The translations under genes were made by a program, and so were the position numbers. The notes beneath the pieces were generated by a model. The model was not told the DNA's origin. It did no database searches and saw only the letters and a program-made list of their open reading frames with translations. Below, one piece after another: positions 11,874 to 22,610 of a stretch of DNA of 30,618 bases; position 1 is the stretch's first letter, and every line of letters begins with the position of its first letter. This stretch comes from a virus, in IMG/VR virus record IMGVR_UViG_3300030329_003906, positions 1 to 30,618 of that record. One strand, given 5' to 3'.

Positions 11874-12221
11874 TTATAAAAGTATATCATGTATATGATC
11901 TAAGAACAATGGAGTGTTCTCCCCCTGATCGCTCTTTTTAATGTTAAGTTCAAAATGCTTTCTAGCTTCTTCTTCTGTCATTTTCTCATTATTCATCAAA
12001 CATTTTATTACCTTAACTGAATCATATATTGCTAAAGATTTATTCCTTTGATGTGCAACACCAACTAAAGCTGGGGCAAATTCATCAGGTAAAAGCAACG
12101 CTTCTTTATTGCAATCTAATAAATAATTTCTATATACAAATGAATACATTTTCGTTCCCTCTCCTTGATGTTTATGGTGTAAATTTTTATAGGGTATATG
12201 TTTTATCTTTCCCCATTTCAT
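11874..12221 (-). CDS. Conserved-type phage protein, last gene of the long early operon
   Basis: The reading frame from 12221 gives 115 aa and overlaps the preceding gene's stop by ATGA. An internal ATG at 12149 (M25, MYSFVYRNYLL) has a stronger Shine-Dalgarno (AAGGAGAGGGAACGAAA) and may be the true start, giving 91 aa. The C-terminal pattern (FAPALVGVAHQRNKSLAIYDSVKVIKCL, MTEEEARKHFELN, GENTPLFL) resembles a widespread phage family of unknown function. Positions 12086-12114 are the exact complement of a 29-nt stretch in the gene at 22368-22610. Confidence 0.7.
   Translation of the reverse strand: MKWGKIKHIPYKNLHHKHQGEGTKMYSFVYRNYLLDCNKEALLLPDEFAPALVGVAHQRNKSLAIYDSVKVIKCLMNNEKMTEEEARKHFELNIKKSDQGENTPLFLDHIHDILL
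12086..12114. repeat. Left copy of a perfect 29-bp inverted repeat
   Basis: On the plus strand this begins CAGGTAAAAGCAACGCTT and ends TATTGCAA. The identical 29 bases occur on the minus strand at 22592-22564. Identity stops abruptly at both edges. This copy lies inside the coding sequence of the 11874-12221 gene, encoding CNKEALLLP on the minus strand. Confidence 0.9.
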
Positions 12222-12598
12222 ATTGATAAATCCTTTCTGCTTTCTAAAAGTTCATTATGATTTTTATTTTTTAATATTAAATGTTTTGCTACTTTTATAA
12301 AATCATCTAAGTACATAGTAACGACATGCTCAACATCTCTTTTGCCACTTTCTTTCTGTGCTTGAAATAGGATTGGCAGTTTCCCTGTTGAATTTCCTAC
12401 TTTTTTTATTCCTCTTAATGCTTTCATTGTTTTTAAGCTAACTGCTTTTCCTGTGCTAGATTTTTTTACCTCTCCAACAATGGTTAAGCTAGTTATATCA
12501 GGCACATCACTTCCTGACCTACCTGTAACAGGAATACGCTTACCATGTATTTTTTTAGCGTAATCCCTCTCCTGTGCTTTCCAAGTTTCCCTGTTCAT
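12218..12598 (-). CDS. PD-(D/E)XK endonuclease, resolvase-like
   Basis: 126 aa. Residues 6-45 show a compact nuclease core: WKAQERDYAKKIHGKRIPVTGRSGSDVPDI followed by IVGEVK. D31, D34, E43 and K45 would form the PD-(D/E)XK metal site, as in phage or archaeal resolvase-like and VRR-type nucleases. It probably cleaves branched replication or recombination DNA. The start (ATG, 12598) follows TAGGAG that overlaps a GTGTACAC site, and it overlaps the upstream winged-helix gene by 44 nt, a common pairing in phages. Confidence 0.65.
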   Translation of the reverse strand: MNRETWKAQERDYAKKIHGKRIPVTGRSGSDVPDITSLTIVGEVKKSSTGKAVSLKTMKALRGIKKVGNSTGKLPILFQAQKESGKRDVEHVVTMYLDDFIKVAKHLILKNKNHNELLESRKDLSI

Positions 12599-12887
12599 CT
12601 GTGTACACTCCTACAGTATTTATAATCAATTTATATTTGAACAATCCATCATCCATGTACTCTTTCTCAATTATATGAGAACCAAATCTTTCTTTTCTTA
12701 GGTTTCTTAGTTGAGCAGATGCACTTGAATGGGGAGTTCGTGTTAATTCAGAAATTTGGTCTAAGGTTCTCCATTGACCATCCTTCATTACATCCCATAT
12801 TCTCAAAAGTTGTCCTGAAAGTCTAACACTATCTCTTTTGTGCTTGTAATCAGAGCCATCAAAATCAAACTTTAATTGGTTATTCAC
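12555..12887 (-). CDS. Winged-helix protein paired with the nuclease
   Basis: I choose GTG at 12887: AGGAG lies 8 nt upstream and the GTG overlaps the previous stop (GTGA). An upstream TTG at 12893 is only 2 nt from AGGAG. The 110-aa product contains a winged helix-turn-helix: LSGQLLRIWDVMKDGQWRTLDQISELTRTPHSSASAQLRNLRKERFGSHIIEKE, then the wing DDGLFKYKLI. This form often accompanies a resolvase-like nuclease in phages. Its 3' part contains the GTGTACAC site and the nuclease start. Confidence 0.65.
   Translation of the reverse strand: MNNQLKFDFDGSDYKHKRDSVRLSGQLLRIWDVMKDGQWRTLDQISELTRTPHSSASAQLRNLRKERFGSHIIEKEYMDDGLFKYKLIINTVGVYTDEQGNLESTGEGLR
12601..12608. promoter_or_regulatory. GTGTACAC operator over the nuclease start
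   Basis: On the minus strand the context is TAGGAGTGTACACAGATG, so the palindrome fills the space between Shine-Dalgarno and ATG of the nuclease gene (start 12598). It also encodes V-Y-T of the overlapping winged-helix gene. Confidence 0.65.
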
Positions 12888-13054
12888 GAACAATTCTCCT
12901 CATAAACTTTTCTAGCAAGTTGATTCATTTCATTTATTTCTTCAACTGCGTGTTTTTTTCCTAGAACATATGCCAACCGAACAAGATTAGTTACCTTTTC
13001 TGTCCATATGACATCATCAGGAATGTTTTCTTTTATAAAATCATCTATAGTCAT
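12884..13054 (-). CDS. 56-aa unknown protein
   Basis: ATG at 13054 overlaps the previous stop (TAATG) and follows AGGAGCAAGAATA. The product MTIDDFIKENIPDDVIWTEKVTNLVRLAYVLGKKHAVEEINEMNQLARKVYEENCS is helical and hydrophilic. Its stop overlaps the GTG of the winged-helix gene. The chain of overlaps supports it as a real gene; the function is unknown. Confidence 0.55.
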   Translation of the reverse strand: MTIDDFIKENIPDDVIWTEKVTNLVRLAYVLGKKHAVEEINEMNQLARKVYEENCS

Positions 13055-13302
13055 TATTCTTGCTCCTCTAGTGCTTGTTTATAAACTGCATCTAGTTCAT
13101 CATCTTCGTATTGAGATAGTGGTTTTTCTCCCATGTGTAAGCCTGTCAACTCGTCCATGATGTCACCAAAATCTCCACCTTTCCAACCTTCTTCCCACCA
13201 TTCAAGTATCACTATGTACTTATCCTCTCGTGTAACTTTGTTATCTTTTTGTTTCTTTGCTATGAACTCGTTGTATTCATCACTTGATACTAACTCTTTC
13301 AT
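13054..13302 (-). CDS. 82-aa acidic unknown protein
   Basis: The start at 13302 follows AGAGGGGCAAGA and overlaps the upstream stop (ATGA). The sequence is acidic with a Trp-rich centre (VILEWWEEGWKGGDFGDIMDEL) and a C-terminal acidic helix (YEDDELDAVYKQALEEQE). No known domain. It belongs to the overlapping early operon. Confidence 0.6.
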   Translation of the reverse strand: MKELVSSDEYNEFIAKKQKDNKVTREDKYIVILEWWEEGWKGGDFGDIMDELTGLHMGEKPLSQYEDDELDAVYKQALEEQE

Positions 13303-13583
13303 TCTTGCCCCTCTTTCTGTATATTTTTTAAATCTGCTAAAAAGTTTTTTATTGTTGCATATTCTTCCATGCCTTTATGATTAGAAATATAAAGTTGATA
13401 AGCAATCATTGATAAATTTTCATTTAATTTATCTAAGAAATTATTATCTTTTTTAATTTTTTCAAGTTTACTAATTTTCTTTTCTAATTCTTTTATTAGT
13501 AAATTTTGACTACTAATTGCGTTGCCTTTCCTTTCTATTTCTTCACTCATATTTATATAGTCTTCATATTCTGCATGATTCAT
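13299..13583 (-). CDS. Coiled-coil unknown protein
   Basis: 94 aa. ATG at 13583 follows AAGGAGAATAA. Residues 8-60 are a strong heptad coiled coil (EIERKGNAISSQNLLIKELEKKISKLEKIKK), followed by a helical tail (YQLYISNHKGMEEYATIKNFLADL). Overlaps the next gene by ATGA. Function unknown. Confidence 0.6.
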   Translation of the reverse strand: MNHAEYEDYINMSEEIERKGNAISSQNLLIKELEKKISKLEKIKKDNNFLDKLNENLSMIAYQLYISNHKGMEEYATIKNFLADLKNIQKEGQE

Positions 13584-13592
13584 TTATTCTCC

Positions 13593-13682
13593 TTATCTAT
13601 AAACATTTACATAACAATAATGACAAATATTTAATTCATCTATTGCTATAAATTCACAACTGCAATATTTACATTTAATCAT
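13593..13682 (-). CDS. 29-aa zinc-knuckle mini-protein
   Basis: MIKCKYCSCEFIAIDELNICHYCYVNVYR: cysteines C4, C7, C9, C20 and C23 form two CxxC pairs typical of a zinc ribbon. ATG at 13682 follows AGAGCAAGA and overlaps the upstream gene's stop (ATGA). It is the first of four consecutive cysteine-rich small proteins read right to left. Function unknown. Confidence 0.5.
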   Translation of the reverse strand: MIKCKYCSCEFIAIDELNICHYCYVNVYR

Positions 13683-22056: not shown

Positions 22057-22226
22057 TTACCTATTAATTTTTTTATTTTTTTTTAAATACTATCTGTCGC
22101 AATTAGCTCTAAACAGAATAAGTATTTTTTTTTCAGTTGTGTTCACCAATTAGAGCCACACTATTTTTTATGCGAAATCTTTAGGTACTATGAATAATAA
22201 ATTTTTTTTTAAAAAAATGTATAGTA

Positions 22227-22234
22227 GTGTACAC
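22227..22234. promoter_or_regulatory. GTGTACAC operator in the 22.2-kb intergenic region
   Basis: Context TATAGTAGTGTACACCACT, centred at 22230.5; a strong left half-site and an imperfect right half. Confidence 0.65.
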
Positions 22235-22292
22235 CACTCTACACACATCTTAGCAGACTCACTCTCCCTGTCACGCTGTTGGCTAAAGTGTA

Positions 22293-22306
22293 GTAGTGTA
22301 CACTAC
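22293..22306. promoter_or_regulatory. GTAGTGTACACTAC operator in the 22.3-kb intergenic region
   Basis: A perfect 14-bp palindrome centred at 22299.5, 69 bp from its neighbour at 22230.5, just downstream of a terminator in the minus direction. Confidence 0.7.
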
Positions 22307-22322
22307 CTTATTTATTAGACAT

Positions 22323-22354
22323 AAAAAAAAGGGGGAGCTTTACAGCATCCCCCC
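22323..22354 (-). terminator. Terminator of the 22368 gene
   Basis: GGGGGAGC (22331-22338) pairs with GC and TCCCCC (22345-22353) with one bulged base, followed on the minus strand by a run of T. Confidence 0.8.
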
Positions 22355-22367
22355 TTTTAATTTATTT

Positions 22368-22610
22368 TCAGTACAATTTAACAACTTTGTAATTGTATTC
22401 TTGACCAACATAATTTATATGTTTTGAAGTTGTAGAAGAATGCCAAGTATCAACAAGGATTTCTCTTTTTTCGTGGTCAATAACTGCAACCTTTGTTAAG
22501 TAACTGAAAATACAATCATCAGATACTAAAAGGTTTTCTCTGTACTTAGGGAGTTTTCTTAATTTGCAATAAAGAAGCGTTGCTTTTACCTGCCCATTTT
22601 TAAATTTCAT
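22368..22610 (-). CDS. 80-aa unknown phage protein carrying the 29-nt repeat
   Basis: ATG at 22610 follows TTAGCGAAAGGAACTTAAA. The C-terminal half (CIFSYLTKVAVIDHEKREILVDTWHSSTTSKHINYVG) resembles a widespread small phage protein with an S-x-TTxKHxN motif (DUF8033-like, inferred). Codons 7-16 contain the 29-nt sequence (22592-22564) that is the exact complement of part of the 11874-12221 mRNA. Monocistronic, with its own operator-promoter and terminator. Confidence 0.65.
   Translation of the reverse strand: MKFKNGQVKATLLYCKLRKLPKYRENLLVSDDCIFSYLTKVAVIDHEKREILVDTWHSSTTSKHINYVGQEYNYKVVKLY
22564..22592. repeat. Right copy of the perfect 29-bp inverted repeat
   Basis: The minus strand reads CAGGTAAAAGCAACGCTT...TATTGCAA, identical to plus-strand 12086-12114. 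Here it encodes QVKATLLYC near the start of the 80-aa protein. Confidence 0.9.

Follow-up and report, generated by a model that had tools for sequence, protein, structure and literature searches.

How do two genes that lie 10.4 kb apart in one phage genome come to carry the same 29 bases, in opposite orientation, so that their messages could pair? In other words, is this a regulatory contact between two RNAs, a pair of arms about which DNA might turn, an artefact of assembly, or the trace of a copying event? The window, by which we mean the whole 30,618-nucleotide stretch that was analysed, comes from a virus contig (record G000) of 38,792 bases whose ends overlap imperfectly (1-341 and 38461-38792), which fits a genome of about 38.5 kb that is circular or terminally redundant. 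Within it, positions 12086-12114 of the plus strand and 22592-22564 of the minus strand are identical at 29 of 29 bases (CAGGTAAAAGCAACGCTTCTTTATTGCAA), with the abrupt edges that a sequence-only reading of this DNA had described, and the inverted match reaches 38 nt at 92% identity if mismatches are allowed. That reading was also right to place both genes on the minus strand, as both open reading frames are, and to assign the segment to codons 7-16 of an 80-aa gene.

Could so long a match be an accident of composition? We simulated 60 genomes under each of three Markov models (orders 1, 3 and 5), and the longest distant inverted match in them was 14-21 nt; the number of matches dropped about 3.5-fold with each added base, which extrapolates at 29 nt to roughly 1e-7 or less. 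The 29-nt match is the longest distant inverted match of the entire 38.8-kb phage record; next in length come palindromic operator-like sites of 22 nt and a single pair of 21 nt. Among related phage records and relatives' loci totalling 405 kb, where 1.1e9 position pairs were compared (0.74e9 for the genome itself), no distant inverted match exceeded 19 nt. A chance origin is excluded, just as had been claimed from the sequence alone.

Is the segment, then, at home in either gene? At 12086-12114 (+) it lies antisense to codons 13-22 of a gene for a conserved small phage protein (probable extent 11874-12149, minus strand, 91 aa; phrog_13182, E 1.3e-16). The frame as listed is longer, 115 aa (11874-12221), with the segment at its codons 37-46, and a second ATG stands at 12149 with AGGAGAGGGAACGAAA upstream; it is there that the gene probably starts, given this good ribosome-binding site and the fit of the resulting 91 aa to the length of the family. 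The segment encodes CNKEALLLP and part of the next residue, D, a region that aligns to the family's LL(L/F)ADGF motif. Our search of viral contigs found 232 relatives, of which 80 were kept, and the family has members in Bacillus Herelleviridae phages as well. In the 80, L18, L19, L20 and D22 are each the most frequent residue at their position, and the motif LLADGFDEA, which the 29 bp encode in part, is kept across these viral relatives and the Bacillus phages. Because a conserved protein motif runs over the 29 bp, the segment can be taken as native to the 91-aa gene.

The situation at the other locus is different. The 80-aa gene (22368-22610, minus strand; phrog_5643, E 4e-10) encodes a small phage protein whose C-terminal 64 residues are conserved and whose first 16 are unique to this genome. 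It is preceded by a leader (22611-22629, minus strand) with a ribosome-binding site, TTAGCGAAAGGAACTTAAA, of a kind common to several early genes of the phage. Between ATGAAA and the segment (22564-22592, minus strand, encoding QVKATLLYC) lie 12 nt, TTTAAAAATGGG (22593-22604, minus strand), which are also missing in relatives and have no other match of at least 12 nt within the window. Searching viral contigs by alignment gave 213 relatives, and neither QVKATLLYC nor the 29-bp segment occurs in any of the roughly 80 loci kept from them, or in L003-L006, whose starts were read. The closest relatives start MKVDISTLNKLPKY where the window has MKFKNGQVKATLLYCKLRKLPKY; the individual starts are MKVDISTLNKLPKYKENLLVSDD in L006, MNIDITTLNKLPKY in L024 and MQVDISTLRKFDKY in L002 (internal Met), and MKFKNGQVKATLLYCKLRKLPKYRENLLVSDD in the window. 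Similarity to the closest relative, L006, is 92% over 185 nt of DNA and begins at window position 22556, adjoining the 3' edge of the segment. It is the absence from relatives, together with a similarity that sets in at this edge, that marks the segment as foreign to the 80-aa gene. No members of the 80-aa family were found in phage GenBank records or bacterial genomes.

One might imagine that the foreign patch was made by assembly or amplification rather than by the phage. The recipient copy is known from a single metagenome assembly, and the imperfect overlap of the contig's ends (1-341 and 38461-38792) points to mixed strains. A close strain, G001, confirms the donor side, its copy of the gene showing 0 differences in 348 positions, whereas the recipient side is found in no second record: the contig of G001 ends at window position 22754, about 140 bases short of the 80-aa gene, the one exact match to a 26-mer of the segment in viral contigs sits in G001's donor gene and none at a recipient gene, and a search for relatives of the neighbouring 179-aa gene, which might have brought in strains spanning the recipient, returned none. 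Yet an artefact would require two junctions about 29 bp apart within one gene, keeping the frame, the ribosome-binding site and the conserved remainder, and a chimeric join supplies only one junction. We consider an artefact unlikely.

What we think very probable is a single templated event in the phage lineage, in which 29 bases of the 91-aa gene were carried, inverted, into the 80-aa gene. Such a transfer should leave an exact match far from the insert but within one genome, and here 29 of 29 bases match; it should also leave the segment native at one locus and foreign at the other, and that is what about 80 relatives of each gene show. Since the segment is native to one gene and foreign to the other, sequence comparison gives good support for copying from the 91-aa gene, as donor, into the 80-aa gene, as recipient. 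The sequence-only reading had offered a short recombination transfer as one of several meanings, and the relatives of both genes support it.

How might this have happened? We infer that a nascent or short single strand from the donor joined at microhomology, during replication or repair of the phage DNA, and that the 29 bases were thus copied inverted into the beginning of the 80-aa gene, 10.4 kb off. The segment, together with the 12 nt, would have replaced about 15 nt of an ancestral start like GTTGACATTTCAACA, leaving the gene 27 nt longer than one with an L006-like start and keeping the frame, the ribosome-binding site and the ATG. The reading frame is indeed intact at the recipient, and a phage-type ribosome-binding site precedes the ATG. 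At the 3' junction, the one that can be read, the letters CAA are shared with L006/L002-like ancestors, although this stretch is short and the ancestor itself is a reconstruction. The process would belong to the class of template switching or short-patch illegitimate recombination. Among the phage's gene products are a Prim-Pol primase-polymerase (Pfam E 6e-26) and a PD-(D/E)XK nuclease, either of which might have taken part.

A further leader match, TTAGCGAAAGGAA at 11850/22629, is collinear with the 29-mer, which raised the thought that a longer tract had been copied; we set it aside because similar leaders stand before other early genes. In the same neighbourhood, 11800-11871 (+), which lies between convergent gene ends, holds a hairpin followed by the ribosome-binding-site-like TTAGCGAAAGGAA and ATGAATTTATAA, and these elements are perhaps the remnant of a gene start.

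It had been proposed that the two early transcripts control one another, pairing over 29 bp so that translation is blocked or RNase III cleaves. As an isolated duplex the 29 bp are strong (-46.8 kcal/mol by duplexfold), and the site falls just downstream of the start codon of the 80-aa gene. But if whole transcripts are considered the predicted interaction, -85.7, lies barely beyond that of other early genes (-38 to -82.0), so close to these unrelated values that the calculation does not single out the pair, and the donor-side sequence is already accounted for by the conserved protein motif. Antisense control in trans should, moreover, be conserved or co-vary, and complementarity was seen in no relative of the 80-aa gene that we examined. 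These include G006 (37,655 bases), where both families are represented on one strand at a spacing of about 10.5 kb. The corresponding region of G006 also has resolvase-like, PD-(D/E)XK and late genes in common with the window, and the longest complementarity between its members of the two families is 9 nt. Relatives lacking complementarity were what the sequence-only reading had said would refute its finding, and syntenic G006 is such a relative. An Rfam search of the window gave no matches. We regard antisense control as very unlikely, and the comparison does not support it. That the two mRNAs are complementary would be a side effect of the copying event: once a segment has been copied inverted, complementary mRNAs follow automatically. 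There is an equally slender prospect that the chance patch made a new trans-antisense pair, one early mRNA now regulating the other; if that were true, a regulatory RNA contact would have arisen in one step.

The comparison with G006 offers an observation of its own. When L006 10007-10191 is set against window 22556-22372, the DNA identity of the 80-aa gene between G006 and the window comes to 92%, above the 70-84% of other stretches common to both; this suggests that the gene was exchanged recently.

The remaining proposal was an inversion site, where recombination between the 29-bp arms would turn the 10.4-kb early region around. Perfect inverted arms do stand on either side of most early genes. 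An invertible switch, though, should come with an invertase and with arms that leave working genes in both orientations. A Pfam scan of most of the early proteins turned up neither an integrase nor an invertase, and the arms lie inside coding sequence, so that inversion would break both genes. The arm pair is also missing in relatives, and in G001 the late genes on both outer flanks keep the orientation they have here, in a contig that stops before the right-hand arm. We judge inversion extremely unlikely, and this suggestion, too, is not supported.

The short templated transfer that we favour is unusual in its length, its orientation and its 10.4-kb distance; its class is known. In Acinetobacter baylyi, Harms et al. 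(2016) reportedly described short-patch substitution by ectopic DNA of intragenomic origin. There, as would be so here, a short segment from elsewhere in the same genome replaces a short resident segment at microhomology; that bacterium is transformable, whereas ours is a phage case in which the junction microhomology is weakly supported. Polymerase template switching between inverted sequences was first suggested by Ripley in 1982, in bacteriophages, and alters proteins in yeast (PMC8604942). As in our case, an inverted sequence is copied elsewhere and several adjacent amino acids change at once with the frame kept. Template switching, however, homogenises two short, already similar arms or inverts their spacer (PMC8604942), whereas the phage donor is 10.4 kb away, no earlier arm pair is evident and some 10 codons arrived together. 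Templated insertions in human cells, as described in PMC8421209, are linked to microhomology-mediated break-induced replication, often with larger rearrangements; they share with our case a short insert templated from another locus, and differ in that no larger rearrangement is seen in the phage.

Comparison with about 80 relatives of each gene points to a single accident of copying, by which a small protein grew longer, and not to a conserved switch that works through RNA. The phage offers a clean natural example: a short inverted piece of one gene became new N-terminal codons of a second gene, comparison with relatives tells donor from recipient, and the case reminds us that long and perfect complementarity between mRNAs need not imply regulation. 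Should such patches prove frequent, they would give phage proteins a way of acquiring new ends.

The early region holds other repeats. A second distant inverted exact match, of 21 nt, joins 16998-17018 in the Prim-Pol gene (PPSIVGG) to 21613-21633 in the 179-aa gene (PPTILGG), and 21 nt was reached in just 1 of 180 simulated genomes. The sequence GTGTACAC occurs 13 times between 11781 and 23632, in the early region only (0.18 expected); its sites, for example those at 19415, 20165, 22227, 22296, 22702 and 23149, lie in many cases inside longer intergenic palindromes and are likely operators of one phage regulator. Repeated hairpins of the GGGGGCTATTTCTAGCCCCCC type, which are likely terminators, stand between early genes at 21377-21416, 22323-22362, 22729-22768 and 23172-23211.
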